Origin: Saprospiraceae bacterium
GTDB lineage: Bacteria; Bacteroidota; Bacteroidia; Chitinophagales; Saprospiraceae
NCBI GenBank assembly: GCA_026993525.1
Contig: JALWSS010000177.1
Location: 1 to 42,367 of the forward strand
Direction: 5' to 3'
DNA: 42,367 nt
Position 1 is the stretch's first letter; every line of letters starts with the position of its first letter. This document shows, in pieces, positions 25,701 to 42,367 of this stretch. The position numbers and the translations under genes were made by a program. The notes under the pieces were generated by a model, which saw only the letters and a list, made by a program, of their open reading frames with translations, was not told the DNA's origin and ran no database searches.

Positions 25701-28700
25701 GGAGCACCACCCTGAGCCGGACACCAGTCGAAGATGGTCCAGGTACGAACGATCTTGTAGCTACCCGGGCAGAGGTTAACCGTCTGGTCAACATAACTTA
25801 CACCCAGGCCACAGATACCGGTTCCGGTCGTAGTCAGGTTGAAGCCAGCAATCTGAGGCCAGCCGGTTACATTCGGATCCAGACTACCCGGTACACTGGT
25901 ACAGTTGTAATCCTTATCGGAAGGCCATACAACCTGGTCAGCTTCACCACGAACCATCGTGATGGTGTGCGTACAGGTTGACTGGTTGCCAAACTCATCA
26001 CTTACGACGAAAGTACGTACGATGACTTCGGCGATACCAGGATTATCGGCACAGTCATACTGGGTATAATCATCGGTGTACTGGCGGCTCCAGTTAGAGC
26101 ATTCATCCACACCAGGCTCACCGGTAAGAAGTTCACCGAGGTAGTTAGTCGCATCTGGATCTTCTGTACACATGATGGTTACATCATCAGGACAAGTAAG
26201 CACTGGTGGCAGTTTGTCTTCGATGAGCAACATACCCCAACAAACGTTACCGCTAATCGGGTGTACCAGGTAGGCAGTCAGGGTCTGTGTAGCATGAGCA
26301 GCTGTTACTATATTCGGTGGATCGAGCGGTACACCAGCTGCATCTTTGATTACAACACTGTAATCATCGAAGCATGGGTAAGTACCTTCAAGAACCATAT
26401 CAGGTGTCACTTCGCTTTCGCAATCCTGCTCGATGGAAACCTGAACAAGGTTGTTGCAGGTCACCTGAGAAGGAGTAGTGACTACGTTGATGAATGTAGA
26501 AATCGTCTGCTCACAACCCGGATCAAGGCGACCATCGGTGCCTGTAGCATCGCCAGGTATGGGAACTCCATTGACCTTGCGTGAAGGCTGGGCAGTTCCG
26601 GCGTCAACAGTGGCAGTAACAACGTGGTTACCAATGCCGAGTGCACCAGGATCAATGGTGTTGGTCACCACACCGTTCACGGTGAAGACTACTGAGTTGT
26701 AGGCGCCGTTGCCAGCGTACTGGTCAGTAACTTCAGGCTCGAACGGAGGCGTACTCAGACAGAAGTCCTGGTCGAGGTTGGTGAACAACGGAGTCGGATA
26801 GTAGCAGGTGTTCATGTACTCGAGCAGGTCACCAATATTGTTGCCCAACGTAGCCATGAAACCTTGTGCGTCAACGTGGCGTGCAGCCAGGGTGTAGTAC
26901 TGAATCTCATCAGCCTCGTCAACATTACCGTCGCCGTCGTTGTCCAGACCGTCCTGGTCACCAGGAGTGAGCAGCGTTCCGTTGGCTATCGGTACCGGAG
27001 CAGCCGGCGGAGCCGGGCTACTTGCCATGTAGAGGCCGGTAGAAGAAACTACGCTCCAGGTTTGACCGGCAAGTGCATGGATCTGAATCAGCTCGCTGAA
27101 TTGACCGTTGGACAGGTCAGTAGCATTGTTCAGACATACACAAGGATCAGAGCCATCAACGTCGTATTCAGGAGTACATGGAGCGTCACCTTCTACCACC
27201 GTCACAGTGATGGTGCAGGTAGCGGTGTTGCCACATGGGTCAGTAATCGTAATGGTCACCTGCGTGGTACCAAGGTCGTCGCAATCAAATGCAGTCTGGC
27301 TGGCAGTGATGGTCAATGCGCTGAATGGTGCGCAGTTGTCAGTTGTACCAGCGGCAGCTACAACCGGATCGAGCGTGGCGTTGCCATAGAGGTCAAGCGT
27401 CAGCGTCTGATCGGTGCAAGACGGTACCGGTGCCTGGGTGTCCTGAACGGTGATGATCTGAACGTGGGTGGTGGTGTTACCAGCCTCGTCAGTGATCTCC
27501 CAGGTACGTGTAATGGTGTAGTTGTAGTGACCACAAACATTCACATCTGCATCCTGTGTGCTGGTCTCAGTGAATACGATCACCAGGTCAGCAGGAGCAG
27601 TACAGTTATCGTGTACATCATCGTTGGTCAGAACGAAGGCAGCAGGAACTGCGTCGCACTCAACTGTAATATCACCAGGCATTACAATGTCGGCGTCGAA
27701 TTCCGGATCCTGCGTATCAACCACCATGATGTCAAATGAGCAGGTAGCTGTGTTACCGTGAACGTCGGTAGCTGTGTAAGTAACGGTGGAGGCAGTACCT
27801 ACCGGCACTACAGAACCACTTGGCAGACCGCCGGTCTGTTCGTTGGTTGCAATTCCACAGTTGTCTTCAGCAACCGGGATGCTCCAGTTCAGTTTGCCAC
27901 TGCACTCGTCAGGATCGTTGCCGATCATAACCATGGTAACCGGGCAGTTCACATAAACAGGAGCTTCGTTATCGGTAACGGTGACATCCATCGAGCAAGT
28001 TGCAGTGTTGCCACTGGCATCCGTTACAACGAAGGTCACAGTAGTGGTACCAACCGGGAAGGTAGCACCGTTGAGCGTGTTGCTGTTCGGAGCCATTGCA
28101 TAGTCGTGAGACAATACAGCGTCCGGACAGTTGTCTGTGTATGCCGGATCCCAGGCAGTATTGTTCACTTTGTAACTGCACTCACCGGCATCAGTTGATA
28201 CGCTCTGATCAGCACCGCAAGAGATGGTTGGGTTCTGATCGTCAACCACGATGATCTCGATACCACAGATGTCAGAAGTATTGCCGGAGGCATCCTGAGC
28301 AATCCAGGTAACCAGCGTGGAACCTACCGGGAAGGTAGAACCAGCCAGTGTGTGAGGATCAACGGCGCTGGCGTAGTTGTGCGTGATCACAACACCAGGA
28401 CAGTTGTCAGTAGCGGTCGGATCGAATCCGGCGCCAGGCATTGTGAAGCTGCACAGTGCAGAATCAGCAGATACCGTGCGTACAGTCGGACCACAGTCAA
28501 TTACCGGAGATTCCTCTTCGATAACCGTGATCTCGAATGAACAGCTTTCGGTGTTGCCGGCTACATCCGTAACCATGTATGACTGTACCGTTGTACCAAC
28601 TGGGAAGCTTGAACCAGAGGTCAAACCGGTTCCGTCTGTCTGAACAACAGTGGTTGAACAGTTGTCAGTAACAGATGGGGCGTTGTAAGTCACAACGGCT

Positions 28701-31700
28701 GAGCACGCACCCTGGTCGGTCAGTACAGTGAAGTTGCCAGGACACTCGATGTCAGGTACTTGCAGGTCAAATACCGTTACAATAGTAGTGCACTGTGAAG
28801 TGTTACCTGCTGCATCAGCAACTTGCAGGGTAACTGTAACGTTACCGAATCCGGTACCTCCTATGTCGTTGCAGTCAACGAATACAGACCCACCGAAGGT
28901 CGCACCGTCACGGCTGATGGATGTTGCAGTCACATCGCAGTTGTCTATGCTGTTGAGGTCAACATCGGAAGCAAGTACTTCGTACAAACCGTCACCATCA
29001 AGAGCAACTGAGAATGGCAACTGGCACTGGGCAGTAGGTGCATCGTCATCAGTGATGGTCACTGTGAAGGTGCAGGTTGCAGTACCGTTGCCGGCCAGGT
29101 CGGTGTATTGCCAGGTCACGGTAGTGGTACCGATCGGGAATTGCGTACCTGAAGCATAGCCGCTGGTCAGGGTTCCGAAGAGACCCGTACCGTCGCAGTT
29201 GTCAGCAAAGGTTGGCAGTGCGTAAGTCACATCGGCACCACAGGCATCAGCATCCGTACCCTGGGCAATGTTGGCCGGGCAGGAGGTGTTGGTGGGTGCT
29301 TCAGTGTCGTTGATTACGATGGTCACGGTGCAACTGGTGTGGTTACCGGCAGCATCGGTTGCAGTCCAAACCACCTCGGTGATGCCTACCGGGAAGGTAG
29401 AACCGGCCAAAGTAGTGTTGCTCACTGCAGGTCCGTAGTCGTGTGTAAAGGTCCAGTTCGGGCAGTTGTCAGATGCAGTGGCATCGAAACCGGTACCAGG
29501 CATGGTGAAGCTGCAAAGACCAGCGTCGTTAGGCTTGGTACGCACCAGCGGTGCACAGTCAACAGTCGGAGGCTCTTCGTCGAGCACGGTGATGTTGAAT
29601 GAGCAAGACTCGCTGTTGCCGGAAGCATCAACTACCTGGTAACTCTGAACAGTGGTACCAACCGGGAAGGCTGAACCGCTGGTCAGACCTGTGCCATCAG
29701 TCTGTGTAACAGTGTAAGAACAGTTGTCAGTAACAGATGGGTCGTCGTAATTCACAACGGCGCTGCACTGACCGGCATCGTTCAGCACGGTGAAGTTGCC
29801 CGGGCACTCGATGTCAGGAACCTGATCGTCGAATACCTGAACAATAGTTACACACTGATCTTTATTTCCACTCTGGTCTTCAACCTCGAGGGTAACGGTT
29901 ACGGAATTTCCGGCATCGTTGCAATCAACGAATACGGAACCACCGAAGGTTACACCGTCACGGCTGATCTCTTTGCGTACGAGTTGACCGCAGTTATCCC
30001 AGCTGGCCACATTGATGTCAGCCACGAGGATTTCAAAGTTGCCGTCTTCGTCAAGAGCTACCGTGTAGTTGTTCTGACACATTGCCACCGGATTCACATC
30101 GTCATTCACCGTCACGGTGAAGGTACAAGTGGCAGGTCCGTTACCGGCAAGGTCAGTGTACTGCCAGGTTACAGTAGTAGTACCCAATGGGAACTCAGTA
30201 CCTGGAGCATAACCGTTGGTGAGTGTACCCAGCAGGCCGGTGCCATCGCAGTTGTCAGCGAAGGTTGGCACGGCGTAGCTAACTACAGCACCACAGGAGG
30301 TTGCAGAAGTAGAAGCAGTGATGTTGGAAGGACAAGTTGTGTTCGTTGGAGCCTCATCATCGGTGATGACGATCTCAACAGAACAGAAGGACTCGTTTCC
30401 GGAGTTGTCAACAACTACCCAGTCAACGATGGTGATACCAACCGGGAAGGTGGCACCAGCCAAAGTGCTGGTCGAAGGAGCAGTCGGATAGTTGTGGGTA
30501 ATGGTTACCGGAGGACAGTTGTCCGGCTGGGTAACCTGAATGTCAAATCCTGTGCCTGGCATGGTGAATGAACAAACACCTGCATCAGCTGGCTTGGTGC
30601 GTTGCACCGGAGTACAATCAATAACCGGAGCAGTGTCATCTATTACGTTGATGACCACGGTGCAGTATGAGATGTTGTTGTTGTTGTCCTTGGCCTTGAT
30701 GGTTACGGAGTTCAACCCGAGGTCATCGCAGCAGAACTGAACAGTTTGACTCAATGCACCGGTCATCATATCCTGGAAGTCAACGCGCTCGATACCACAG
30801 TTGTCATAAAGTGACAGGATCAATCCTGAAGTATCAATGGTTGTACAACCGGTAGTAGCGTCAAGGATCACATTGGCAGAAGCCTTGCACTCGAGGTCAG
30901 GCTTGAGATTGTCCTCAATGGTTACAATAGCACCGCAAGTGCTGAGGTTGCCATTGCCATCATCATAGGTCACAGTAACTGAATGTGTTCCAACAGCAAC
31001 ACAACCGGACCATGTATTGGGACTAACACTGATCAAGGTGACCTGGCCACACTCATCGTCAACAAAATTGCTGACGTCATCAGGCATGATGGAAGCATTG
31101 CCGAGGTAATCAAACTCGATGGTAATGTCGTGACACATTCCGGCTGATGGTGGAGGAGTCACGTCATCAACAAAAGTAGCAATGGTACAAGTGCTGGTAT
31201 TGCCTTCATCATCAGTTGCCGTAACCACTACGTTAACAGTAGTTTCTGCATCTTCGCAATACATGATTGCAGGATCGAAAGCAATGTGTGGATCTGCGTC
31301 GCAGTTATCCGTTGCTCCCAGATCTGAGCCAACTACTGACAAACCGGTAGCAGCCTGATAATCAGCTACAGCTAGAACATGGGTGCCATCAGCGCTCAAG
31401 TTCACAGTTGCGCTGGTCGGGCAGGTCAGGGTTGGAGCAATCTGGTCAACTACTTCGATAACCACATCGCAGGTGGATACGTTGCCGTTCACATCCGTTA
31501 CGGTAAGCTGAACAGCATTCAGACCAATGTGGGTGCAGTTAAATGCTGTCTGTGACAGTACTTCACTGGCTATACCACATGCATCCGTGCTGGCGGCATC
31601 TGTAACGTTACCAACCGTCAATGTACCGTTGCCTGTACCATCCAATTGCAGTGTGTAAACTGAGATACAATGGATAACAGGAGCGATATCATCAACGACG

Positions 31701-34700
31701 GTTACGGTAGAGTTGCAAGTCTGATTGTTACCGTTGTTGTCAGTGTAAGTAAGTACCACGGTGTTTGCACCTACATTGGTACAATTAAATGTGTTGGGCA
31801 CAGCACTTACCAGTGTGATCAGTCCACAATTGTCATCCACAGGGCTGGCGATATCTTCCGGAATGATGGAAGCATTACCGCTGGCATCGAGGCTGATGGT
31901 GAGGTTGTGGCAAATAGATGCAGCTGGATCAACATCATCAACGAAGGTCGGAACGGTACAGCTGGTACTGTTGCCCTCATTGTCAGTAATTGTGATGACA
32001 ACATTGACAGTTGTCTCGGCATCTTCACAGTAAGCAATATCCGGAGAGAATGTAGAACTGCTCAACAGATCAGCATCCGAGGTACAGTTGTCAAATACGT
32101 CAGCTCCATCGAGTCCAAAGTCAGCATTGGTAAATACATGCGTTCCGGCAGGATTCAACGAAACAGAAGCATTTGCAGGACAAGTAAGTGTTGGAGCAGT
32201 TACATCCTGAACATCTATCGTTACTGTACAGTATGAGAAGTTGTTGTTGTTATCAGTTGCTTTGATGATCACTGAATTCAATCCGAGATCTGCACAGCAG
32301 AACGTAGTGGTGGTACTCAGAGCACCAGTCATCATGTCCTGGAAGTCGACACGTTGTATACCACAGTTGTCGTAGAGATTTACGATCAATCCAGAAGTAT
32401 CAAATGTAACACATCCACTTGTTGGATCAAGGGTCTTGACAGCAACTGACTTACACTCCAAGTCGGGGTTCAGGTTGTCCTCGATGGTCACCTGAGCACC
32501 ACAAGTGCTGGTATTGCCATTGCCATCGTCATAGGTTACCGTTACTGCATGGGTGCCAACAGATACACATCCAGACCAACTGTTTGGAGAAACACTGATC
32601 AAGGTAACCTGACCACATTCATCGTCAACGAAGTTGCTGACGTCATCAGGCATGATGGACGCATTGCCATCGTGGTCAAACTCGATGGTGATGTCATGGC
32701 ACATTCCAGCTGATGGCGGTGGCGTCACATCGTCAACCAAAGTACCTACGGTACAGGTCGAAGTATTGCCACTTCCGTCGCTGGCGGTGATCACAACGTT
32801 GACAGTCGTTTCGGCATCTTCGCAATAAACGATTGAAGGATCGAACGCCCATGAAATCGGACCGCAGGCATCAGTTGCACTCAGGTCAGGACCAACTACA
32901 TCGAGACCGGTTGCAGCCTGGTAGTCAGCAACTGCCAATACGTGCTTGCCATCGGCACTAAGCTCAACCCGGACTGATGTTGGGCAAACCAATGTTGGAG
33001 CGGTAACATCACGCACCAGTACCTGAGCCATGCACTGATCACTGTTGCTGTTGTCATCGGTCACGGTGAGGATCACCATGTTGTAACCGAGGTCGGCACA
33101 AGTGAATGCTGTGTTGTTGAGAGACATCGTCAGGGTCTGATCGCAGTTGTCAGAGCTACTGTTGTTGATGTCTGCAGTAGTAATGGTAGCATTGCCGGCT
33201 GCATCCAGGTCAACAACGATGTCTTTACATTCAGCGTCAGGATTCACGTTGTCCTGAACATTGATCACCTGACAAATAGTATTGGTACAGGTAGAAGCAT
33301 TGAATCCACCACATGCAGCGGTTTCAAGAACTTCTATCATGCAGATGGTTGACTGACCCCAGCCTGTGGCCGTGACCACGCCTGTAGCCGGATCGACAGT
33401 GGCCGCAGCCGGATTGCTCGAGGAGTAGCTGCGGGTAACCGTACCCAAGTAGGTAGGACTGGTAATGTAGTCGGTTACGTTAAACGTTACCACGGGATCA
33501 CCGTCGCCTCCATCCCAGCACCATTCCTCAGGAATGTCAAGACCTGGTTGCGGATCTTCACCAATACGTACCACGAATACCTGGGTGGCATCACAGCTGG
33601 TACCGGGCTTATCAACGGTATACTCAACCATGTAGCAACCAGGAGCGGTGTAGTACAGGTTGGTACCGAGGATGGCACCATTGGCATTTGCGACGTTGAA
33701 GCTCCAGGTGCCGCCGGTAGTCGTACCCGGGCAAAGGAGGCCTTCAAGGTCAAATGTGTGGATGTTGTATGTTGAGTTGATGGTAGTGCTACCTACATTG
33801 TAAGTATGGGTAGTTCCGGTATTATCAGCTGCACAAGGCAGTTCTACACCAACGGTACCTGTGTAACAGGTTGTCGGGATGACTGCATCTTCGTGCACGA
33901 TGATATCCTGGCAGTAGGTCTGTGCGCAATCGGGATCACCGGTGGTTACACAGATGGTGTAAGTGCCAGGCTGGCTTGGGTGGAAGGAACCTGTTGGGTC
34001 GTTACCGGTGTTGTCGGTAACATCCACTGTTCCAAGTGCACCGTACCAAACCACCTCTGACTCTCCATCAGGACTACCCGCATTGACTGATGCATCCGGA
34101 TTGTCCAGCGTCAACGTCCACGGCCCGTCGGCAATACACACTTCATCCGGAAGGGTGAAGGTAGGATCGCTGGAAGCACGAACTTGAACCGTAGTGGAAG
34201 CAACTACCGGAGAACAAATGCCACTCGGTGGGAACAATGTGTAAAGAATTGTATGGGTACCCTCACCAGCAGTAGCTGGATTGAAGGAGGCAGTAGCACC
34301 ATCTCCATTATCCGTAACACCAGGACCGAAGAAGGTGCCGAATGTAGTACCACACACACTTGGTGTACCAGTATAATCCATGTTCACCGCAGCGTCAGTG
34401 GCACAAAGTGGGCCTACATTGCTGATGCCTCCGATATCCGGACGCTCCTCGATTGCGATCGTTACGGCATCACTGTTCGGATTACAGTCGTTTGCGAAGC
34501 TGTAAGTAACGGTGATGGAACCACAACTGCCGCCGAGGTACTGCCAGTTGTTGGCATTGGCAATGCCAAGACCGCCGAGGTCAGTCACAGTGAACTGCCC
34601 GCCCGGTAGGGCAGTAGCTGCAAGAAGGTCAGAGAAAGAGATCACTTCACCGGGCTGCATGCACAGGCTGAAATCAGCTGTCAATGCAACTTCGGCAGCA

Positions 34701-37700
34701 GTGTAATCTTTCTGAACTTCAATATCGTGGCACTGGGTCTCTTCACAGGCAGGAGAACCTACGGTCACACAAATCGTGTAATCGCCAGGTGTCAGGCCGG
34801 AAGGATCAAATGTGCCGGTAATTCCATTGTCAGTTACACCGGTGCCCGTCCAGGTGATGTTGTCAGCCAGGAGCGGCTGGCCACCATCGTTGTTGGCATT
34901 GGTCAGGCTCAGTGAAAGCGCCATATCGCTCTGACAAATGGTATTTTGAAGGGTGAAAGCAGGATCACCTGAAGCATTCACCACTACATATTGATCGAAA
35001 GTGTGATTAGGACAAACGCCATTGCTGACGGTCATTGTAACGTCCACATTGACCGACTCACCAGCTACCGGGCCGGCGGAAGCGTCGAACTCACCCGTAG
35101 TGGCGTTTACAATGAAACCGGCAGGGTTGCTGGTGAAACCAACAGTAGCCCCAGCTGGCACACCTGTAATAACAGCAGCGGCATTGGGTGCATCCTGACA
35201 AACAGAAGTTGGCAGGGAGAATGCACCGTCAGGCATTTCGTCAATGGTCAATGTTACATTGTCAGAAGCAGTGCTACCATCACAGTTGGTGAGGGTGTAG
35301 GTCACAGTCAAAGTGCCGTCACCACTTCCGTAAACAAAACCATTGGGAAGAATGGTTCCAGTTACTGCGCCACCAGTCACAGCGGTAAAGGTTCCACCCA
35401 GGGAAGAACCGCTGGCCAGCAAGGTGTAGAAATCAAACACCTCATTGGGAGACAGACATATTGTCGTGTTCGGGATCAGGTCTGCATTGGCAGCAGTGTA
35501 GTTCGGGCTGACCACTACGTCGAAGCAGTAAGTACTCTTACAGGGATCAACACCGGCCTCAGCACATACGGTATAGGTGCCGGGAACTGCGGTAGCAGAA
35601 ATGGTCAGTGTACCGGTAGCATCAGCGCTGCCTGCACCGCCGTTATCGGCTACAGTTACATTTACACCGTCACCACCGTACCAGCGCACGCGCTCTCCGT
35701 TGGAAGGAGCGGTACCACTACACATGGTAGGCCAGGCAGCCAATGGATTGGCAAGTGACAGTACTTTCACATCACCCGGGCAGTTTGGTGCAGTAACTGA
35801 GAAGGTTGGATTGTCGTAAGGATAAACGAACAATTGGGCCTCGATTACAGATACACAACCTGGCTCGGCAGTACCGGCACTTGCGTTATCTGTAAAGGTG
35901 TAAGAAATGGTGTGGCAACCAGGACCTGCAGCACCCGGATCAAAGGTGGCGGTTCCATTGCCGTTGTCGGTCAAACCAGGAGCAGCGTTGTAGGCATATC
36001 CCGGGCCGAGGTAGAATGCATTGCCATTGAAGGTGCCGGTACCGGTTGTACTTACGGCACCCGTCAGGGTAATGGGAGCTGCATTTTCGCAGAGGTCCTG
36101 AATACCAAGAATCTGTGGCTCCGGATAGAAGCAGAGGTTATCCTGATGCAGGAATACGTTGGTTGGCGTACCAACTGCTGCGGGACCTTCAACATTTACA
36201 GAGTAGCCTTGATTGTCAACGTGCTCTCCGTAGAGGTAATAGCCACCCTGAGGCACTTCTATTTCGGGGTCACCATCAAGGTCGCAGCCACCAGGCACAT
36301 TACAGTAGATCAAAGTTTGACCCACTGTCACCATGGCTGGATTAGGACCTGCATTGTTGGTCAGGTCTGGTTGATGAAGACCATTAACCATGTCAACTGT
36401 CCATGTCTGACCTGGTGGCAACGCCGCACCACCAGGACCTGTCACAACCACTACTTCACGGAATGTACCGTTGTCGCCATTTACATCGGCGTCGTCAATA
36501 CACTCACACGGGTCGTGGATTGCAAACTCAGGATCACAAGACATCGGTACGTTAAGCGTAAATGTAGCCGTTCCCGTGCAGCCTTTGCTGTCGGTTACAG
36601 TATAGGTGATGGTAGTTGTACCCCCTGCTACTGCTGATACATCAGCCGTACCATCGCCATTGTCTGAAACAGTGGCAACAGCCGGGGCAGAACTTGACCA
36701 GCTGTGAGTGTAACCCGGAGTTCCACCCGTCGGATTGCCATCAAATGTCAGGGTCACTCCTGAACACATTGGAGTTACACCACTGATGGAGGCCGTTGGG
36801 TTCGGATTTACGGTTACCGTAACCTGGTCAGTGGCTGTACAACCGAAGTTGTCAGTCACTGTTACAGTGTATGTAGTGGTAGCAGTGGGAGTAGCTGTCG
36901 GATTGGCCAGTGTGGCATCGTCAAGCGTACCTGCATTGTCCCACAGATAGCTGTAAGGACCTCCACCACCACCAGAAGCGGTTGGTGCACCGCCGATTGC
37001 AGTGCTGGAACCATCACATACTTCGGTATCCATACCTGCATCGGCAGCAAGATCGGTCGTGACGGTGACAGTATGAGTACAAGTGGCAGTATTTCCGGCG
37101 CCATCGGTAGCTGTCCAGGTTACCGTGGTAGTACCCAGTGGATAATTATCAGAAGCGTCTGCTCCGTTGTTGTAATCGTTGGTAGCGGTTGCAGAGCAGT
37201 TGTCTGTTACTGTAGGAGCTCCGACAGTAACATTTGCTGAGCACATAGCAGCATTCACCGATTGTGTCACATTAGCTGGACAAGTAATCGTCGGATTCTC
37301 ATTGTCGTTGACAGTAATGTTAAAAGTACATGTACTCATATTACCGGCGCCATCCGTTGCTGTACCTGTTACAATAGTAGTACCAACCGGGAATGCGGTA
37401 CCACTGGCAGGTGATGCTGAAGTAGTCACACCCGGGCAGTTGTCTGATGCTGCAATGGAGAAGGTTACAACAGCACTGCACATGCCAGCATCATTGTTTA
37501 CTGTCAAGTTGCCAGGACAGGAGGCTGAAGGAGTCTCAATGTCATTAACAGTTACATTGAATGAACACATGCTGGTGTTACCAGCGGCATCGGTAGCAGT
37601 GACAGTTACTGAACTGGTACCGACAGCAAAGGTACTTCCACTTGCAGGTGAAGCAGTGTAAGTCACACCCGGGCAGTTGTCTGTAGGAGATGCAGTGAAA

Positions 37701-39610
37701 GTTACCACGGCACTACAATCGCCAGGATCATTGCCCTGGGTAATAGCAGCCGGACAACCCGGAGATGGTGCCTCCGTATCGTTCACGGTAACCGTGAAAC
37801 TACAACTGGCTGTGTTACCGGCAGCATCTGTTACCGTATAAGTCTCAGTGGTTGTACCTATCGGGAAGGTAGAACCGCTTCCAAGACCTGCTGTCTTTGC
37901 TGTAGTAGCACCAGGACAGTTATCTGTGCCTGTGGGAGCTGTGTAGGTTACTACAGCACTACACATCCCAGCATCATTGCCTTGAGTAATATTGGCAGGA
38001 CAACTGATCGTTGGATTCTCAGTATCATTCACGGTAACCGTGAAACTACAACTGGCTGTGTTACCGGCAGCATCTGTTACCGTATAAGTCTCAGTGGTTG
38101 TTCCTACCGGGAAGGTAGAACCGCTTCCAAGACCTGCTGTCTTTGCTGTAGTAGCACCAGGACAGTTATCTGTGCCTGTGGGAGCTGTGTAGGTTACTAC
38201 AGCACTACACATCCCAGCATCATTGCTAACTGTGATATTACCGGGAGAGGCACAGCTAATTGAAGGATTCTCTGTGTCATTCACGGTTACTGTAAAAGTG
38301 CAAGTTCCTGTGTTACCTGATCCGTCAGTAGCAGTAACTGTAACAGTAGAAGTACCTACATTGAAAGTACTGCCACTGGCAGGAGAAGCAGCAGAAGTAG
38401 CAGAGCAGTTGTCTGTGGGTGCAGGAACTGTAAATGTGACCACTGCACTGCACATGCCAGGATCGTTGGAAACTGTAACATTTGCAGGACAATTTGCAGT
38501 TGGAGCAATGTTATCCACAACATTGAAGCTACATGTAACAGTACTTGAGTTCAATGAAGGATCCGTAGCAGTAAGTACCACGGTCTGAGTACCAAGGTCA
38601 GCACAGGTATAGCTCTGTGACGGACTGGTTTCCGTAACAGGCCCACAGTTGTCAGTAGAACTTCCGTTTCCAATGTTGGCAGGTAGCGTACCGTTACCAC
38701 TACCATCCAGTGCAACATCTGCGATGGTTGCTGGACACGTAGCGGTAGGTGCCAGGTTGTCAACAACATTAAAGCTGCAAGTGACAGTATTGGTATTACC
38801 CGCCAGGTCAGTTGCAGTGAGAACAACTGTCTGAACTCCAAGATCGGCACAAGTATAGCTCTGTGAAGGGCTAGTCTCAGTGACAGTTCCCGGACAGTTG
38901 TCGGTTGAACTTCCATCACCGATATTGGCGGGAAGCGTGCCATTACCTGAAGCATCCAAGGCTACATCCGCAATAGCGGCCGGACAAACAGCCGTCGGCG
39001 GAGTAACATCGCCTGCTGTGAAGGCATGGAGGCTGTTGTCAATAGCCAAAACGCAGGGACATGGTCCCATTGCCCCATCTGAATCATCGGGGTCTTGCAC
39101 CACCTGAACCAGCATCAGATTTCCACTGATCATAGCGCCATTTGGAGTTTCGGCATCAACATCAATGGTAAACTGGCCAGTTGGGCCTGCTGTGGTACTG
39201 GTCATTGATTGCAAGTCCTGACTTCCACCCACAACCGGTACATTCACGATGATGTAATAATCATCATTCACACCGGGAGTGGTGCCCGTAGGCAAGCCAT
39301 CGACATCAATAGTCATTGTGGTATCTGCCCCGTTGATACAAACTTCAATCGCAGTGATTGAAACGGGGAGGAAGCCAGCAAGCTCTTCCGGCTGGGCACC
39401 CTGGCTCCAGTCGGTGGCAGTTTCTTCCTGAATCACAGGCTCATCAAAAATGTTGGCCAACGCCTCATTGGCCGGGGATGAGAACCCGAGTTGCTCCCAA
39501 TTTACGGTCAGGGCTGTGACTGTGCCGATCAGGCCAATGGCCAGAGGCAACAAGACAACCTTCTTAGCCAGAACCGTGAGAAGCTTCGAAGTAAAATTCG
39601 TCTTTTTCAT
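22529..39610 (-). CDS. giant HYR-repeat surface protein with dockerin-like, cohesin-like and T9SS sorting domains
   Basis: One uninterrupted frame of 5,693 codons. The N-terminus has a 17-residue basic region and a hydrophobic core (about 18-36), an unusually long signal peptide. By position: about eight HYR-like modules (39,010-37,060), PKD-like modules (37,060-36,545), an unrecognised module (36,545-36,115), Cys-containing Ig-like modules (36,110-33,260), about 23 further HYR-like modules (33,260-27,180), a second copy of the unrecognised module (27,190-26,790), a region with RTWTxxxWC motifs (26,790-23,770), a carboxypeptidase-regulatory-like domain, a dockerin-like duplicated TTFDLVxI/L motif (23,570-23,410), a cohesin-like beta domain (23,200-22,790) and a T9SS type A sorting domain (last 80 residues, YQNTPNPFSAETLVSFNLP). 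It should cross the outer membrane through T9SS and act at the surface or as a matrix or adhesion fibre. Function beyond that is inferred. No exact promoter box was found upstream. Confidence 0.93.
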   Translation of the reverse strand: MKKTNFTSKLLTVLAKKVVLLPLAIGLIGTVTALTVNWEQLGFSSPANEALANIFDEPVIQEETATDWSQGAQPEELAGFLPVSITAIEVCINGADTTMTIDVDGLPTGTTPGVNDDYYIIVNVPVVGGSQDLQSMTSTTAGPTGQFTIDVDAETPNGAMISGNLMLVQVVQDPDDSDGAMGPCPCVLAIDNSLHAFTAGDVTPPTAVCPAAIADVALDASGNGTLPANIGDGSSTDNCPGTVTETSPSQSYTCADLGVQTVVLTATDLAGNTNTVTCSFNVVDNLAPTATCPATIADVALDGSGNGTLPANIGNGSSTDNCGPVTETSPSQSYTCADLGTQTVVLTATDPSLNSSTVTCSFNVVDNIAPTANCPANVTVSNDPGMCSAVVTFTVPAPTDNCSATSAASPASGSTFNVGTSTVTVTATDGSGNTGTCTFTVTVNDTENPSISCASPGNITVSNDAGMCSAVVTYTAPTGTDNCPGATTAKTAGLGSGSTFPVGTTTETYTVTDAAGNTASCSFTVTVNDTENPTISCPANITQGNDAGMCSAVVTYTAPTGTDNCPGATTAKTAGLGSGSTFPIGTTTETYTVTDAAGNTASCSFTVTVNDTEAPSPGCPAAITQGNDPGDCSAVVTFTASPTDNCPGVTYTASPASGSTFAVGTSSVTVTATDAAGNTSMCSFNVTVNDIETPSASCPGNLTVNNDAGMCSAVVTFSIAASDNCPGVTTSASPASGTAFPVGTTIVTGTATDGAGNMSTCTFNITVNDNENPTITCPANVTQSVNAAMCSANVTVGAPTVTDNCSATATNDYNNGADASDNYPLGTTTVTWTATDGAGNTATCTHTVTVTTDLAADAGMDTEVCDGSSTAIGGAPTASGGGGGPYSYLWDNAGTLDDATLANPTATPTATTTYTVTVTDNFGCTATDQVTVTVNPNPTASISGVTPMCSGVTLTFDGNPTGGTPGYTHSWSSSAPAVATVSDNGDGTADVSAVAGGTTTITYTVTDSKGCTGTATFTLNVPMSCDPEFAIHDPCECIDDADVNGDNGTFREVVVVTGPGGAALPPGQTWTVDMVNGLHQPDLTNNAGPNPAMVTVGQTLIYCNVPGGCDLDGDPEIEVPQGGYYLYGEHVDNQGYSVNVEGPAAVGTPTNVFLHQDNLCFYPEPQILGIQDLCENAAPITLTGAVSTTGTGTFNGNAFYLGPGYAYNAAPGLTDNGNGTATFDPGAAGPGCHTISYTFTDNASAGTAEPGCVSVIEAQLFVYPYDNPTFSVTAPNCPGDVKVLSLANPLAAWPTMCSGTAPSNGERVRWYGGDGVNVTVADNGGAGSADATGTLTISATAVPGTYTVCAEAGVDPCKSTYCFDVVVSPNYTAANADLIPNTTICLSPNEVFDFYTLLASGSSLGGTFTAVTGGAVTGTILPNGFVYGSGDGTLTVTYTLTNCDGSTASDNVTLTIDEMPDGAFSLPTSVCQDAPNAAAVITGVPAGATVGFTSNPAGFIVNATTGEFDASAGPVAGESVNVDVTMTVSNGVCPNHTFDQYVVVNASGDPAFTLQNTICQSDMALSLSLTNANNDGGQPLLADNITWTGTGVTDNGITGTFDPSGLTPGDYTICVTVGSPACEETQCHDIEVQKDYTAAEVALTADFSLCMQPGEVISFSDLLAATALPGGQFTVTDLGGLGIANANNWQYLGGSCGSITVTYSFANDCNPNSDAVTIAIEERPDIGGISNVGPLCATDAAVNMDYTGTPSVCGTTFGTFFGPGVTDNGDGATASFNPATAGEGTHTILYTLFPPSGICSPVVASTTVQVRASSDPTFTLPDEVCIADGPWTLTLDNPDASVNAGSPDGESEVVWYGALGTVDVTDNTGNDPTGSFHPSQPGTYTICVTTGDPDCAQTYCQDIIVHEDAVIPTTCYTGTVGVELPCAADNTGTTHTYNVGSTTINSTYNIHTFDLEGLLCPGTTTGGTWSFNVANANGAILGTNLYYTAPGCYMVEYTVDKPGTSCDATQVFVVRIGEDPQPGLDIPEEWCWDGGDGDPVVTFNVTDYITSPTYLGTVTRSYSSSNPAAATVDPATGVVTATGWGQSTICMIEVLETAACGGFNASTCTNTICQVINVQDNVNPDAECKDIVVDLDAAGNATITTADINNSSSDNCDQTLTMSLNNTAFTCADLGYNMVILTVTDDNSNSDQCMAQVLVRDVTAPTLVCPTSVRVELSADGKHVLAVADYQAATGLDVVGPDLSATDACGPISWAFDPSIVYCEDAETTVNVVITASDGSGNTSTCTVGTLVDDVTPPPSAGMCHDITIEFDHDGNASIMPDDVSNFVDDECGQVTLISVSPNSWSGCVSVGTHAVTVTYDDGNGNTSTCGAQVTIEDNLNPDLECKSVAVKTLDPTSGCVTFDTSGLIVNLYDNCGIQRVDFQDMMTGALSTTTTFCCADLGLNSVIIKATDNNNNFSYCTVTIDVQDVTAPTLTCPANASVSLNPAGTHVFTNADFGLDGADVFDNCTSDADLLSSSTFSPDIAYCEDAETTVNVVITITDNEGNSTSCTVPTFVDDVDPAASICHNLTISLDASGNASIIPEDIASPVDDNCGLITLVSAVPNTFNCTNVGANTVVLTYTDNNGNNQTCNSTVTVVDDIAPVIHCISVYTLQLDGTGNGTLTVGNVTDAASTDACGIASEVLSQTAFNCTHIGLNAVQLTVTDVNGNVSTCDVVIEVVDQIAPTLTCPTSATVNLSADGTHVLAVADYQAATGLSVVGSDLGATDNCDADPHIAFDPAIMYCEDAETTVNVVVTATDDEGNTSTCTIATFVDDVTPPPSAGMCHDITIEFDYLGNASIMPDDVSNFVDDECGQVTLISVSPNTWSGCVAVGTHSVTVTYDDGNGNLSTCGAIVTIEDNLKPDLECKASANVILDATTGCTTIDTSGLILSLYDNCGIERVDFQDMMTGALSQTVQFCCDDLGLNSVTIKAKDNNNNISYCTVVINVIDDTAPVIDCTPVQRTKPADAGVCSFTMPGTGFDIQVTQPDNCPPVTITHNYPTAPSTSTLAGATFPVGITIVDWVVVDNSGNESFCSVEIVITDDEAPTNTTCPSNITASTSATSCGAVVSYAVPTFADNCDGTGLLGTLTNGYAPGTEFPLGTTTVTWQYTDLAGNGPATCTFTVTVNDDVNPVAMCQNNYTVALDEDGNFEILVADINVASWDNCGQLVRKEISRDGVTFGGSVFVDCNDAGNSVTVTLEVEDQSGNKDQCVTIVQVFDDQVPDIECPGNFTVLNDAGQCSAVVNYDDPSVTDNCSYTVTQTDGTGLTSGSAFPVGTTVQSYQVVDASGNSESCSFNITVLDEEPPTVDCAPLVRTKPNDAGLCSFTMPGTGFDATASDNCPNWTFTHDYGPAVSNTTLAGSTFPVGITEVVWTATDAAGNHTSCTVTIVINDTEAPTNTSCPANIAQGTDADACGADVTYALPTFADNCDGTGLFGTLTSGYASGTQFPIGTTTVTWQYTDLAGNGTATCTFTVTITDDDAPTAQCQLPFSVALDGDGLYEVLASDVDLNSIDNCDVTATSISRDGATFGGSVFVDCNDIGGTGFGNVTVTLQVADAAGNTSQCTTIVTVFDLQVPDIECPGNFTVLTDQGACSAVVTYNAPSVTDNCSTTVVQTDGTGLTSGSSFPVGTTVQSYMVTDVAGNTESCSFEITVIEEESPVIDCGPTVRTVSADSALCSFTMPGAGFDPTATDNCPGVVITHNYASAVDPHTLAGSTFPVGSTLVTWIAQDASGNTSDICGIEIIVVDDQNPTISCGADQSVSTDAGECSYKVNNTAWDPAYTDNCPDAVLSHDYAMAPNSNTLNGATFPVGTTTVTFVVTDASGNTATCSMDVTVTDNEAPVYVNCPVTMVMIGNDPDECSGKLNWSIPVAEDNCGIATNEQTGGLPSGSVVPVGTASTVTYTATDVHGNTATCSFDIMVVDTQDPEFDADIVMPGDITVECDAVPAAFVLTNDDVHDNCTAPADLVIVFTETSTQDADVNVCGHYNYTITRTWEITDEAGNTTTHVQIITVQDTQAPVPSCTDQTLTLDLYGNATLDPVVAAAGTTDNCAPFSALTITASQTAFDCDDLGTTQVTITITDPCGNTATCTITVTVVEGDAPCTPEYDVDGSDPCVCLNNATDLSNGQFSELIQIHALAGQTWSVVSSTGLYMASSPAPPAAPVPIANGTLLTPGDQDGLDNDGDGNVDEADEIQYYTLAARHVDAQGFMATLGNNIGDLLEYMNTCYYPTPLFTNLDQDFCLSTPPFEPEVTDQYAGNGAYNSVVFTVNGVVTNTIDPGALGIGNHVVTATVDAGTAQPSRKVNGVPIPGDATGTDGRLDPGCEQTISTFINVVTTPSQVTCNNLVQVSIEQDCESEVTPDMVLEGTYPCFDDYSVVIKDAAGVPLDPPNIVTAAHATQTLTAYLVHPISGNVCWGMLLIEDKLPPVLTCPDDVTIMCTEDPDATNYLGELLTGEPGVDECSNWSRQYTDDYTQYDCADNPGIAEVIVRTFVVSDEFGNQSTCTHTITMVRGEADQVVWPSDKDYNCTSVPGSLDPNVTGWPQIAGFNLTTTGTGICGLGVSYVDQTVNLCPGSYKIVRTWTIFDWCPAQGGAPTQTSYVQYIKILDLPPSISVTCNDVDPATGYCILNATEPPIGSQLECRTFGPIPYAQIDGVCNDVVEVTVETPAGNTINGGYIPGDGLPLGGPYEIVYRAEDECGNITEYTLTVIVQDIVAPTVVCDEITDANLSIDGIATIFAETFDDGTTDNCCLDHFEVRRMEDNCDDGHDDTVFGESVVFCCNDIPGPHTVVFRAYDCHGNYNECMVQVNVSDKLKPDLLSCPAPQRVLCDWYADNLETQLADLAGDADAQSQLLDQYFGTPTFQDNCDLEINRTISINIDQCLEGTITRSWTAEDPSGNVSNQCTQTVFVDHVSDWVVEFPANILVTCGNEVPDFGEPEIFYETCELVAVSYVDEVFNTVPDACYKILRTWTVINWCVVGDDIDEEVVEAPENALGLPFPACDLDGDGDCDDRTFRDSWNATSKPTAANATDITDPDTDLDSDPWDGFITYQQTIKVIDDVDPVFTNGCDIPNVCIEDNTCGATVTLPQPEITECSSIVTLSASGDLGNGFGPFVNVAPGTYSVTYNAIDNCNNQTNCEATVTVEDCKKPTPYCVNGLVIDLMNTVPAMVEVWASDFDAGSFDNCDDNLELSLSADVNDKSRTYTCDDLGQQIVQLWVTDDAGNQDYCETFIIIQANMGQCDTSGTPIIAGVIETEGAEPVADVDVQLSGSNQSSMMTTNDGQYGFAVTPGGDYTVTPVKDVDPLNGVTTFDLVLITKHILGVQELDSPYKMIAADANKSNSITTFDLVQLRKLILFIDTEFPANTSWRFVDKAYVFPDPTDPWVEEFPEVINFNNVTADELDSDFIAVKIGDVNGSAQPNFASGAEDRTVTGSLVFDIDDVEIENGELYTVNFKAHDFNVLGYQFTLNYDRTALEFVEVVPALASTENFGLTLLDKGAITTSWNENNVNLEDGEVVFSLTFKANRKVKLSEALSVNSRFTPAEAYKPNGDLLDVDLAFNGELAGAFELYQNTPNPFSAETLVSFNLPQASTATLTITDVSGKVVKVITGEYAKGYNEIKLKRSELPAGGIYYYQLDTPTDSATKMMLLVD
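23230..23570 (-). other. dockerin-like domain of the giant protein
   Basis: Two matching segments, GVTTFDLVLITKHILG and SITTFDLVQLRKLILF, are separated by ADANKSNS. This is the doubled loop-helix pattern of type I dockerins. It ends in KIGDVNGSA. A cohesin-like beta domain follows in the same chain. The pairing may be internal and structural rather than cellulosomal. Confidence 0.7.
26790..27190 (-). other. unrecognised module, copy 2
   Basis: Shares with copy 1 (36,115-36,545) the order C-x-PE-Y/F, DPCxC, NGxFxE, GQTWxV, GLY/H, YYxL, HVDxQG and CY/FYPxP. It also contains a calcium-loop-like acidic stretch, DGLDNDGDGNVDEADE. I do not recognise this domain. Confidence 0.6.
28517..30640 (-). 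repeat. 1,062-bp segmental duplication (four-module unit)
   Basis: Two adjacent units of 354 codons (29,579-30,640 and 28,517-29,578) carry the same ordered set of four modules, and a third partial unit follows. For example, CAGTTGTCAGTAACAGATGG occurs at 28659 and again at 29721, exactly 1,062 bp apart. Confidence 0.85.
30641..33008 (-). repeat. 1,566-bp segmental duplication (six-module period)
   Basis: The block 31,443-33,008 is followed by a half copy at 30,641-31,442. The anchor CGTCATCAGGCATGATGG at 31075 recurs at 32641, 1,566 bp (522 codons) apart. The modules with PPPSAGMCHDITIEFD and YDNCGIxRVDFQDMMTGALS are nearly identical between copies. Confidence 0.85.
36115..36545 (-). other. 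unrecognised module, copy 1
   Basis: Opens CDPEFAIHDPCECIDDA and runs through GQTWTVDMVNGLH and GGYYLYGEHVDNQGY to CFYPEPQ. It is collinear with the copy at 26,790-27,190 but divergent in sequence. It has at least five Cys and one DLDGD acidic loop. It matches no family that I can name. Confidence 0.6.
37784..38226 (-). repeat. 246-bp near-identical tandem HYR repeat
   Basis: Segments 37784-37980 and 38030-38226 differ at only two or three positions by eye and are offset by 246 bp (82 codons). They encode adjacent HYR modules. The identity extends through third codon positions, so the copying is recent. Confidence 0.9.
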
Positions 39611-40355: not shown

Positions 40356-40652
40356 AAAAACTTCCAGATACCAATTTTACCCCTTTCGGGTAATCATGTT
40401 CAGGTCACATTCTGCACGTCCTCATCTTTGCACTTTGACCTTCCGGAATCCATCCTCCAAATTCAAAAATCCCGCCAAGGGAGCTGTAAAGGTAGCATCC
40501 GTTGACATTTATTTCCAAGACATGAAGGGTGTTTTTTCTCCACATTCCAAAATTTACCCTAAATGGTTTACCAAGTGGGATTTATCCATTGCGATTTCAT
40601 AGAATGTGTAAAGCTCCAATTCAACAATTCTTTCGCGAGAGCATGGTACTGG

Positions 40653-40742
<90 letters not shown>

Positions 40743-40876
40743 CCCTGGGCTTCGCCTGGGATCAGTGGGTGGCGTGAATTGCATTGTTGGGTTGTGTTAA
40801 TCCCGAATCGGGGTTCGTGCTCAAAGAACTCGCATGGGTACCCAACGCCAACAGCCTAAAAACCTCAAAAACCCCA

Positions 40877-40897
40877 ATCCCGAGCTTGCCCCGGGAC
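40877..40897. repeat. 21-bp interspersed palindrome
   Basis: ATCCCGAGCTTGCCCCGGGA plus C. The same design recurs at 40963-40983 and, with the loop in the opposite orientation, at 41-61. Confidence 0.7.
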
Positions 40898-40962
40898 AAA
40901 AACCTCAAAAAAAATTCAGGAGCTGACCGAAAGTCAGCGCCTGACGGGGCCCAAAAACCTCA

Positions 40963-40983
40963 ATCCCGAGCTTGACTCGGGAC
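40963..40983. repeat. 21-bp interspersed palindrome
   Basis: ATCCCGAGCTTGACTCGGGA plus C; differs from the copy at 40877 mainly in the loop. Both copies are flanked by AAAAACCTC. Confidence 0.7.
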
Positions 40984-41046
40984 AAAAACCTCAAAAACCA
41001 AATAAAAAACCTATCCCTCTGCGAGCGATGTTACGGGTTCACTTTG

Positions 41047-41054
41047 TACTTTTG
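41047..41054 (+). promoter_or_regulatory. -7 box of the cysteine operon
   Basis: TACTTTTG is an exact TAnnTTTG match. Transcription would begin near 41060, giving a leader RNA of about 185 nt to the attenuator terminator. The -33 region shows no clear TTG. Confidence 0.6.
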
Positions 41055-41076
41055 TGGCATAAGTTTTGAACTTTTC

Positions 41077-41109
41077 ATGACGGAGGTCCCGTTTTACGAA
41101 ATGATATGA
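41077..41109 (+). CDS. possible 10-codon upstream ORF overlapping the Cys leader
   Basis: ATG at 41077 opens a frame encoding MTEVPFYEMI. Its stop TGA (41107-41109) overlaps the ATG (41106-41108) of the poly-Cys leader in the form ATGA. Such an overlap permits translational coupling. A GGAGG lies inside it (41082-41086). It is too short to prove from sequence alone. Confidence 0.3.
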   Translation: MTEVPFYEMI

Positions 41110-41183
41110 AACCATTCTTTTCAAATAATGCATGTTGTTGTTGTTGCACGCTTCCACTGTGGAAGGGCACAATGGCGACGTAG
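41106..41183 (+). CDS. poly-cysteine leader peptide (25 residues)
   Basis: The peptide starts MKPFFSNNACCCCCTLPL and ends at TAG 41181-41183. Codons 10-14 (41133-41147) are TGT TGT TGT TGT TGC, five Cys in a row. Cys is a rare amino acid, so this is far from chance composition. The frame lies between a promoter box and an intrinsic terminator, and the next gene is a cysteine synthase. The codons just after the Cys run form arm 1 (41151-41156) and arm 2 (41159-41168) of the attenuator. Its role is regulatory: ribosome stalling when charged Cys-tRNA is scarce. The peptide itself probably has no function. Poly-Cys leader ORFs with this role are established in mycobacteria; this one is assigned by analogy and by the RNA structure. 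Confidence 0.8.
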   Translation: MKPFFSNNACCCCCTLPLWKGTMAT

Positions 41184-41244
41184 TGTTATTTGACCTGGAC
41201 TACTCGTATGCAAAAAAGCCTTTCCACGTCGGAAAGGCTTTTTT
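41151..41244 (+). promoter_or_regulatory. cysteine attenuator: mutually exclusive RNA arms 1-4
   Basis: Arm 1 CTTCCA (41151-41156) pairs with TGGAAG (41160-41165), giving a 1:2 hairpin. Arm 2 GTGGAAGGGC (41159-41168) can instead pair with arm 3 GCCTTTCCAC (41218-41227) over ten contiguous base pairs, one of them G-U. Arm 3 also forms the terminator with arm 4. A ribosome held on Cys codons would cover arm 1, leaving 2:3 to form and transcription to continue. Fast translation would let 1:2 and 3:4 form and stop transcription. The pairing is read directly from the sequence; the mechanism is inference from known attenuators. Confidence 0.75.
41212..41244 (+). terminator. attenuator terminator before the cysteine synthase gene
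   Basis: AAAAAAGCCTTTCC (41212-41225) pairs perfectly with GGAAAGGCTTTTTT (41231-41244) over a five-base loop, 14 bp in all. The stem ends in six T followed by G and four more T. It stands 41 bp before the cysteine synthase start and so would block expression unless relieved. Confidence 0.92.
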
Positions 41245-41285
41245 GTTTTCAGAAACTATTGATCTCAACTCCAAACCTGGTACCC

Positions 41286-42218
41286 ATGACAGCAGGCATC
41301 GAAACTTTAGGGCGCAATCAGAAAGAACATAGACTCTGGCAGGTGGGGCAGTTCATTGGCCGAACGCCACTGTTCGAAATCAATCGGGTGTTCCTCAAAC
41401 CCGGGGTGCGGCTCTTCGCCAAATTGGAATGGCAGCAACTCGGTGAGAGTGTAAAGGCAAGGCCTGCGTTCAACATCATCAAAAATGCCCTGCTCTCCGG
41501 GCAACTTCAAGGGCGCAACTTGCTGGATGCCACCAGTGGCAATACCGGAATAGCCTATGCCGCCATCGGGGCCGCCCTTGGTATCCCGGTCACACTGTGC
41601 CTGCCGGAGAACGCATCGGAGGAACGCAAGCGAATCCTTCGCTTTTTCGGTGCACAAATTATCTACACTTCCAAATTTGACGGAACGGACGGCGCACAGG
41701 AAAAAGCGCAGGAACTTTTCCGTGAACAACCCGACCGCTATTTCTACGCCGATCAATACAGCAACGACGACAACTGGAAGGCCCATTACGAAACCACCGC
41801 CCCGGAAATCTGGCAACAGACCCGCGGCACGGTGACCCACCTGGTGGCCGGCCTCGGCACTACCGGCACGCTGACCGGCACAGGTCGTGGTCTCCGGAAC
41901 CGCAACCCCGATCTCGAGATCATCGGGCTTCAACCTGACAACCCCATGCACGGCCTGGAAGGATGGAAACACCTGGAAACGGCCACTGTCCCAAAAATTT
42001 ACGACAACGGCCTGGCAGACCGCATTATCGAAATCGACACCATCGAGGCCTATGAAATGATCCGGCTGGTAGCAAAAAAAGAAGGCTTGCTCATCAGTCC
42101 CTCCTCTGCCGCCAACCTGGTCGGAGCTATCAAGGTCGCTTCGCAACTGGACCACGGGGTGGTTGTTACCACCTTCGCGGACAATGCGAGCAAGTATGGG
42201 GAAGTGTTGAGGAACTGA
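41286..42218 (+). CDS. cysM: PLP-dependent cysteine synthase (CysM/CysK-like)
   Basis: A 310-residue fold-type II PLP enzyme that makes L-cysteine from an activated serine and a sulfide donor. Features: GRTPLFEI at 25-32, the PLP lysine K57 in GESVKARPA, TSGNTG (83-88) that binds the substrate carboxylate, the PLP phosphate loop GLGTTGT and SPSSAANL near the C-terminus. The HGLEGWKHLETA segment is like the CysM/CBS-related group rather than classic CysK. Whether O-acetylserine or O-phosphoserine is used cannot be told. An in-frame ATG at 41190 lies inside the attenuator, so the ATG at 41286, after the terminator, is the likely start. Expression is probably attenuated by cysteine. The gene is followed at 71 bp by a JAMM-like gene. 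The symbol is by family likeness. Confidence 0.9.
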   Translation: MTAGIETLGRNQKEHRLWQVGQFIGRTPLFEINRVFLKPGVRLFAKLEWQQLGESVKARPAFNIIKNALLSGQLQGRNLLDATSGNTGIAYAAIGAALGIPVTLCLPENASEERKRILRFFGAQIIYTSKFDGTDGAQEKAQELFREQPDRYFYADQYSNDDNWKAHYETTAPEIWQQTRGTVTHLVAGLGTTGTLTGTGRGLRNRNPDLEIIGLQPDNPMHGLEGWKHLETATVPKIYDNGLADRIIEIDTIEAYEMIRLVAKKEGLLISPSSAANLVGAIKVASQLDHGVVVTTFADNASKYGEVLRN

Positions 42219-42283
42219 AGAATCGAGGAATCGAGGAATCGAGGAATCGAGGAACTGAAGAACTGAAAAACTGAAAAACGAAT
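42212..42283 (+). repeat. 8-bp period repeat spanning the cysM stop codon
   Basis: Units in strict 8-bp register: GAACTGAA, four GAATCGAG, two GAACTGAA, then AAACTGAA and AAACGAAT. The stop codon TGA (42216-42218) is part of the first unit, so the array starts inside the coding sequence. Confidence 0.92.
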
Positions 42284-42289
42284 TTTGAA

Positions 42290-42367
42290 ATGAGGAAGAA
42301 GGTCATTTTATCAGACGAAGTGGTTGAGTCCATTAAAAAGCACGGAACGGAAACCTTTCCGTATGAA
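42290..42367 (+). CDS. JAMM/M67 metallopeptidase, N-terminal part (Mec+-like candidate)
   Basis: Only 26 codons are in the window, and the gene continues past the edge. The protein starts MRKKVILSDEVVESIKKHG and then TETFPYE. This is the usual opening of JAB/Mov34 (JAMM) peptidases, where a helix is followed by xxxPxE(A/C)CG. The zinc motif is beyond the edge. Next to a CysM-like gene, the best guess is a homologue of mycobacterial Mec+, which releases cysteine from the sulfur carrier CysO. That is inference from position and a short match. It probably shares the attenuated transcript with cysM. Confidence 0.55.
   Translation, partial: MRKKVILSDEVVESIKKHGTETFPYE

Follow-up and report, generated by a model that had tools for sequence, protein, structure and literature searches.

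Ribosome-mediated attenuation is a classic mechanism of gene control, with the trp, his and leu types of enteric bacteria as examples. Small leader open reading frames (ORFs) with runs of cysteine (Cys) codons occur in mycobacteria, where those of Canestrari 2020 are reportedly leaderless, and the CysO sulfur-carrier pathway of cysteine synthesis is also best known from mycobacteria. In this study, we analyzed 42,367 nucleotides (nt) of DNA from a Saprospiraceae bacterium of the phylum Bacteroidota (assembly GCA_026993525.1, contig JALWSS010000177.1, positions 1 to 42,367 of the forward strand), hereafter the window, in which a short poly-Cys leader ORF and a terminator precede cysM, a cysteine synthase gene. 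Sequence and comparison indicate that this element is very probably a ribosome-mediated transcription attenuator reading charged Cys transfer RNA (Cys-tRNA), because many relatives keep the same layout, often with two units in series. Like the enteric trp, his and leu attenuators, it combines a run of codons for the end-product amino acid in the leader, a competing antiterminator and terminator, and a presumed coupling of ribosome and polymerase. Unlike them, it concerns cysteine, belongs to the Bacteroidota, has no Shine-Dalgarno core and no demonstrated conserved 1:2 hairpin, and often comes as two in series.

According to the available part of a 2010 survey, leader-peptide systems had previously been known only from Proteobacteria and Actinobacteria, to which Firmicutes were added (PMC2965389). 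Poly-Cys leaders before cys operons or cbs have been reported in Mycobacterium, Propionibacterium acnes, and Bifidobacterium longum; in the accessible text of that report no terminators were found for them, whereas the Bacteroidota leaders have an intrinsic terminator and a matching antiterminator (PMC1262725). A further similar case is the uORFC-8-2 motif before cysS in Rhodobacterales, whose available description gives an upstream ORF with Cys codons, a U-run consistent with a terminator, and a proposed Cys-tRNA attenuation (PMC8632094). That motif has two Cys codons, is alphaproteobacterial and controls cysteinyl-tRNA synthetase, whereas the leaders described here have at least three Cys codons and precede genes for sulfur assimilation and cysteine synthase (PMC8632094). 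Within the Bacteroidota, attenuation by leader peptides before amino acid operons has likewise been inferred in Flavobacterium psychrophilum, in a study whose main text names no cysteine case (PMC9723704), and the part of a study on Bacteroides thetaiotaomicron available to us describes leader-peptide-like short ORFs in long 5' untranslated regions (PMC7366714). We found no report of cysteine attenuators in Bacteroidota when searching one open-access library; subscription papers lie mostly outside it, and an earlier mention is possible. This agrees with, and does not prove, the view of the first-pass annotation, made from the letters of the window, that none had been described. The mechanism class and poly-Cys leaders elsewhere are already known. 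What looks new is a poly-Cys form that works with terminators and comes in tandem, and its occurrence across sulfur genes of the Bacteroidota.

Parts of the putative attenuator in the window

The leader, its control codons and the predicted pairing arms are the following:

41106..41183, plus strand: leader peptide ORF coding for MKPFFSNNACCCCCTLPLWKGTMAT, 25 codons and a stop, read from the ORF list and the letters
41133..41147, plus strand: control codons, five Cys in a row (TGT TGT TGT TGT TGC)
41159..41168, plus strand: putative antiterminator arm 2, GTGGAAGGGC, forming 10 base pairs (bp) with 41218-41227 in the predicted fold
41210..41225, plus strand: 5' arm of the predicted terminator stem (arm 3)
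41231..41246, plus strand: 3' arm of the predicted terminator stem (arm 4), entering a T-tract

The leader ORF with its five Cys codons, the ten-base pairing and the cysM ATG at 41286 lie where the first-pass annotation had placed them. The 14-bp terminator with T-tract that it had drawn at 41212-41244 is the core (41212-41225 with 41231-41244) of a strong intrinsic terminator of 16 predicted bp, 41210-41225 with 41231-41246, followed by the T-tract. The upstream neighbour is an ORF on the minus strand, and because it is divergent, this terminator is not the 3' end of that gene. The segment 41075-41250 folds at a z-score of -5.97 against shuffled sequences. With arm 4 absent and a ribosome on the first Cys codon, the predicted fold of the window is the 10-bp antiterminator; in the full fold, the Cys codons pair with 41167-41180, inside a stem spanning 41121-41193. 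A leader ORF with a Cys run, an intrinsic terminator and an antiterminator that a ribosome could mask or free, three features of trp- and his-type attenuators, can all be read in the sequence. In the Rfam search, no family reached its gathering score in 40500-41400 of the window, and six relatives gave only a tRNA at an expectation value (E) up to 0.1.

From this layout we infer that the leader is translated, that the ribosome may stall in it, and that termination follows the cysteine supply. Transcription would start just before the leader ORF, with the ribosome trailing RNA polymerase. When Cys-tRNA is plentiful, the ribosome would reach the stop codon and cover arm 2; arms 3 and 4 would then form the intrinsic terminator, and cysM would stay untranscribed. 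When Cys-tRNA is scarce, the ribosome would stall in the Cys run and arm 2, left free, would pair with arm 3 while arm 4 had yet to be transcribed; the polymerase would then continue into cysM and the genes that follow. In the many relatives with two units in series, which seem to share a transcript, the ribosome would have to stall in each leader for the polymerase to read through.

Conservation of the leader and its pairing at cysM loci

A family search over 150 genomes gave CysM matches in 112 of them (E up to 1e-40), from which 30 loci were fetched, and a scan of a named genome collection contributed the best 80 matches of a longer list. After 13 duplicates had been dropped from these 110 loci, 97 distinct ones were left, of which 94 were usable and 3 had less than 250 nt upstream. 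A leader was called where an ORF starting with ATG, 8-60 codons long and containing three or more Cys codons in succession, lay in the 1250 nt upstream. The second leader of loci L013 and L101 was included under a wider rule, CC-x(1,2)-CC. Poly-Cys leaders were found at 74 of the 94 usable distinct loci, and a run of at least four Cys stood upstream of 68 of the 97. All other strand sequence of those loci, 1.26 megabases in total, served as control and yielded 14 hits with at least three Cys and 1 with at least four. Over 109 leaders, the Cys codons were TGT 399 times and TGC 134 times. In a midpoint-rooted CysM tree, whose bootstrap had not settled, the 74 leader-bearing loci fell within one group of 88 rows (support 100/99), 14 of which had no leader, and the five rows nearest to the window also had a single leader (fork support 89/76).

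Terminators followed 106 of the 109 leaders, compared with 18 of 600 random windows from the same loci. The tests of pairing, geometry and folding used all 106 terminator-bearing leaders, and the swap test all 33 tandem pairs. Covariation was counted in an alignment of 65 of the 87 eligible leaders (run of at least four Cys, at most 150 nt), from which 22 leaders, either near-copies or with unusual terminators or long spacers, had been removed by hand, so that the counts refer to a tidied set. In these 65 leaders, double-sided changes occurred at 11 of 11 pairs of the terminator stem (104 cells; 0 of 500 shuffles as high), which are compensatory changes of the kind that the first-pass annotation had proposed looking for in relatives.

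The pairing of arm 2 with arm 3 was specific to each leader. Its mean was 19.62 for arms of the same leader and 13.67 for permuted arms (standard deviation, sd, 0.29), with a maximum of 14.85 in 5000 permutations. At tandem loci, where swapping arms between the two leaders controls for genome composition, the own pairing beat the swapped one in 32 of 33 pairs, with 1 tie. Of the 38 leaders in the first set, 29 had an arm 2 that outscored shuffles of its own spacer at p < 0.05, and 9 did not. In the Saprospiraceae rows, GCCTTTCC-type terminator arms mostly go together with an arm 2 of the GGAAAGGC type. A group including Chitinophagaceae (for example L095, L097, L104, L106, and L112) has GCTCCAC-type arms together with a GGTGGG- or GTGGGG-type arm 2; the three arms therefore change together. 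The relatives thus conserve both the Cys run and a leader-specific arm 2-arm 3 pairing, and these results, with the covariation, strongly support the earlier suggestion that charged Cys-tRNA would control read-through.

Geometry, folding and competing explanations

With ribosome footprint sizes assumed, the geometry is consistent with a switch of this kind. Arm 2 begins a median of 13 nt after the last Cys codon. In 106 of 106 leaders it stays clear of the footprint when the A site of the ribosome holds the first Cys codon. When the ribosome has reached the stop codon, half of arm 2 or more falls within the footprint in 72 of them. When the ribosome-free RNA was folded before arm 4, the antiterminator was predicted in 100 of 106 leaders with the ribosome stalled at the first Cys codon and in 8 of 106 with the ribosome at the stop codon. 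The whole segment before the terminator was somewhat structured (mean z -1.56, 67 of 106 under -1).

Several observations weigh against an attenuator of this design. In 34 of the 106 leaders, less than half of arm 2 would lie under a ribosome that has reached the stop codon, and after arm 3 had been exchanged between leaders the antiterminator was still predicted in 63-73 of 106. Once arm 4 is included, the equilibrium fold is the terminator in 101 of 106 leaders, even without the RNA covered by the stalled ribosome, and likewise in the window. Three leaders, the distal ones of L018 and L089 and that of L142, lack a terminator by the rule used. Furthermore, among the 72 named loci that carry two or more of mec, cysO, and moeZ, 14 have no leader by rule; these comprise 3 Fodinibius (Balneolota), 1 from Armatimonadota, 1 from Acidobacteriota, and 9 from Bacteroidota. 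The other six of the 20 loci without a leader (L027, L028, L030-L033) also show no mec, cysO, or moeZ in the stretch examined. A conserved arm 1 is not supported either, which counts on the same side: pairing of the Cys-codon region averaged 15.04 over the 106 leaders against 14.76 in permuted ones (sd 0.24), and the arm 1-arm 2 pairing predicted in the window was not above permuted across them. The 1:2 hairpin that the first-pass annotation had read at 41151-41165 is there in the letters (CTTCCA-CTG-TGGAAG), but the weight placed on it is not generally supported, since the local hairpin behind the Cys run has a mean z of only -0.51, with 33 of 106 leaders under -1.

Equilibrium folding was accordingly discarded as support for antitermination. 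Since the equilibrium fold favours the terminator, antitermination would have to be kinetic, with the antiterminator forming first.

Among the explanations that compete with Cys-tRNA attenuation, the one that survives best, and which we still consider unlikely, is that the stall answers another signal than Cys-tRNA charging, such as oxidative or persulfide stress that affects cysteine or the cysteinyl-tRNA synthetase. Peroxiredoxin genes inside some of the operons would fit such a signal: one lies between leader and cysM at L008, L015, L021, L084, L088, L096, L107, L127, and L194, with a second leader behind it at L015, L096, and L107. However, most cysM loci have no peroxiredoxin gene within the stretch examined, and the genes behind the leaders mostly code for cysteine, sulfite or sulfate enzymes.

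The same peroxiredoxin genes, and the chemically striking length of the Cys runs, could also suggest that the poly-Cys peptide is itself the functional product, serving in metal binding, as a sulfur store or as a redox sensor, with the terminator incidental. This is very unlikely: the peptide sequences vary widely outside the Cys run, nearly every leader is followed by a terminator, and arm 2, in the RNA just behind the run, pairs with the terminator of its own leader. About equally improbable is translation-coupled or Rho-dependent control without intrinsic termination, as proposed for mycobacterial poly-Cys leaders. The actinobacterial leaders with Cys runs and without terminators, for which the available text suggests Rho, offer a precedent (PMC1262725), but the present leaders have intrinsic terminators with covariation, and in the window 102 nt separate the end of the leader ORF from cysM. 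Chance, in the form of a functionless Cys-run ORF beside an ordinary terminator, is refuted by the comparison and carries a negligible probability: by itself, a TGYx4 run is no rarity in DNA (120 occurrences in the window's own genome, 107 for the reversed control pattern), but short ATG ORFs with at least four Cys are very rare outside upstream regions, and the layout recurs at 74 cysM loci and at 27 reductase loci.

Tandem leaders, other sulfur genes and the surrounding sequence

Two leaders within 320 nt of each other were found at 33 of the 74 leader-bearing cysM loci, and at 2 further cysM loci two leaders flank a peroxiredoxin gene. Among cultured carriers, Saprospira grandis Lewin (L141) has two leaders, and the Paraflavitalea and Pseudoflavitalea strains (L097, L105, L112, and L136) have one. 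The first-pass annotation had not described the tandem arrangement, nor three points treated below: the operon, leaders before further genes, and a conserved promoter element. The motif TAnnTTTG preceded 16 of the 33 distal leaders, 19 of the 39 single leaders and 1 of the 33 proximal leaders, with 4 of 33 and 1 of 39 in controls taken further upstream; the tandem leaders therefore seem to lie on one transcript. The distance from the Cys run to the stop codon was 12 nt in distal and 33 nt in proximal leaders, and the proximal one was longer in 30 of 33 pairs. Only one leader is present in the window, and it reads as the proximal type because of its long tail. In Salmonella, the two leaders of mgtCBR respond to different signals, unlike the leader pairs described here, both of which are poly-Cys. 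The tandem attenuators of mgtCBR offer the same arrangement of two leader ORFs before one operon (PMC3641672).

Leaders of this type also precede other sulfur genes. A covariance model of leader plus terminator, R1, was applied to family and phylum genomes. In 61 family genomes it led to 30 fetched loci, 22 with a poly-Cys leader at the match and 8 without; the 22 comprised 6 cysM operons, 13 NirA-like reductase genes, 2 cysH genes, and 1 ATP-grasp gene. In 296 phylum genomes, a match was obtained in 26 (E up to 1e-4), and of 28 newly fetched loci 7 (6 distinct places) had a poly-Cys leader and 21 did not; the leaders preceded cysK and the cysM operon twice each, and an ABC transporter gene and metY once each. 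As a stand-alone detector R1 was rejected, many of its matches being terminators alone. In the window's own genome, R1 gave 18 matches at E up to 5, one of them strong (E 6.8e-10); of the others, the full-length R1 matches elsewhere in that genome (L175, L177, and L181) were checked and had no Cys leader.

At L165, the leader MNKTTIIFSCSFSATCCCLCCCLVY precedes a RimK-like ATP-grasp gene. Outside the window's class, L191, L193, L197, and L210 have leaders and R1-matched terminators before two cysK genes, an ABC transporter gene, and metY. The metY leader contains MMPMCMMMCCCC, and the ABC transporter ATP-binding gene is SaoA-, taurine- or nitrate-like, with matches below the cut-offs and an uncertain substrate.

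A direct search found the NirA-like reductase in 38 of 110 genomes, its NirA family match lying under the curated cut-off, and 30 loci from family genomes (L219-L248) were fetched; the window's own genome gave no match at E 1e-60. Poly-Cys leaders were present at 27 of the 30 loci, with two leaders at 17. In this independent set, terminators followed 42 of 44 leaders, own-arm pairing was 15.81 against 12.36 (sd 0.40), and the antiterminator was predicted in 40 of 42 leaders with a stalled ribosome and in 3 of 42 with the ribosome at the stop codon. Methionine (Met) stood beside the Cys run in 34 of 44 reductase leaders compared with 16 of 109 leaders of cysM operons, which suggests joint sensing of Cys and Met, with extra start codons as an alternative. 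Across all sets, the genes behind the leaders mostly serve sulfur assimilation or the synthesis of Cys and Met; the exceptions are the ATP-grasp gene, the ABC transporter gene, and the peroxiredoxin genes in some cysM operons.

If the leaders are Cys-tRNA attenuators, a wider picture can be drawn, to which we would give an even chance of being right. Poly-Cys attenuators would act on sulfur genes across the Bacteroidota; tandem units would sharpen the response in the manner of an AND gate; the choice of codons in each leader would be tuned to the operon, with Cys for the CysO pathway and Cys plus Met for the NirA-like reductase and metY; and tight coupling of ribosome and polymerase would be implied in the absence of Shine-Dalgarno sites. 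Such a class would be a well-supported group of Bacteroidota attenuators for cysteine and sulfur assimilation, with the second set of operons as independent support, and it would link the CysO sulfur-carrier pathway to poly-Cys leaders in a second phylum. It would also make two points testable, namely tight coupling of ribosome and RNA polymerase in bacteria where translation begins without Shine-Dalgarno pairing, and the effect on the dose response of two attenuators in series that read the same signal.

The remaining features of the locus are the following:

41047..41054, plus strand: TACTTTTG, promoter box of the first-pass annotation
41065..41075, plus strand: TTTGAACTTTT element, likely the -33 promoter region
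41286..42218, plus strand: cysM-like cysteine synthase gene, 310 residues and a stop, first gene of the putatively regulated operon, identified by TIGR01138 and solved relatives
42290..42367, plus strand: start of a mec-like (JAMM) peptidase gene, cut by the contig end, 26 residues, 10 of 20 aligned residues identical to the mec homologue of L010

The Bacteroidota promoter consensus is TTTG...TAnnTTTG. The box at 41047-41054 does fit TAnnTTTG, but the six aligned neighbours do not conserve it at the corresponding position. Conservation lies further downstream: all 7 aligned rows contain TTTGAACTTT (41065-41074), and 6 of them contain TTTGAACTTTT. By this consensus, the TTTGAACTTTT element is likely the promoter region, with a -7 box expected at about 41088-41096, where the window is degenerate; in L067, TATTTTTG follows the conserved TTTGAACTTTT element at the -33/-7 spacing. 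In the 38 leaders for which both were found, TAnnTTTG precedes the leader ATG by a median of 19 nt, and transcription probably starts close to that ATG. A Shine-Dalgarno core (GGAG or GAGG) occurs before 2 of the 109 leaders.

The CysM protein of the window matches TIGR01138 at E 1.1e-91 with 307 bits, under the curated cut-off of 394. Its solved relatives are 2bht and 3dwg_A, both named cysteine synthase B, which we take to be from E. coli and M. tuberculosis, respectively. In most leader-bearing relatives with enough downstream DNA, cysM is followed by genes for a JAMM-type peptidase, a ThiS-type carrier, and a ThiF-type E1, so that the usual unit is cysM-mec-cysO-moeZ, which by sequence is the gene set of the CysO-dependent cysteine pathway. 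At L020 and L102, moeZ alone was seen of mec, cysO, and moeZ. The downstream genes of L010 belong to the Prok-JAB, ThiS, and ThiF families, and its carrier matches 3dwg_C (E 4.4e-12), presumably CysO in complex with CysM. In the window, the only part of these neighbours is the first 26 residues of mec.

The divergent upstream neighbour, at 22529-39610 on the minus strand, is an ORF of 5693 codons that holds many similar repeats and resembles, we presume, a giant extracellular repeat protein. About 12 tandem copies of CAGTAGG stand upstream of the leader at 40658-40742, and short tandem repeats (GAGGAATC and AACTGAAA) surround the end of cysM at 42209-42279, ahead of the mec-like gene.

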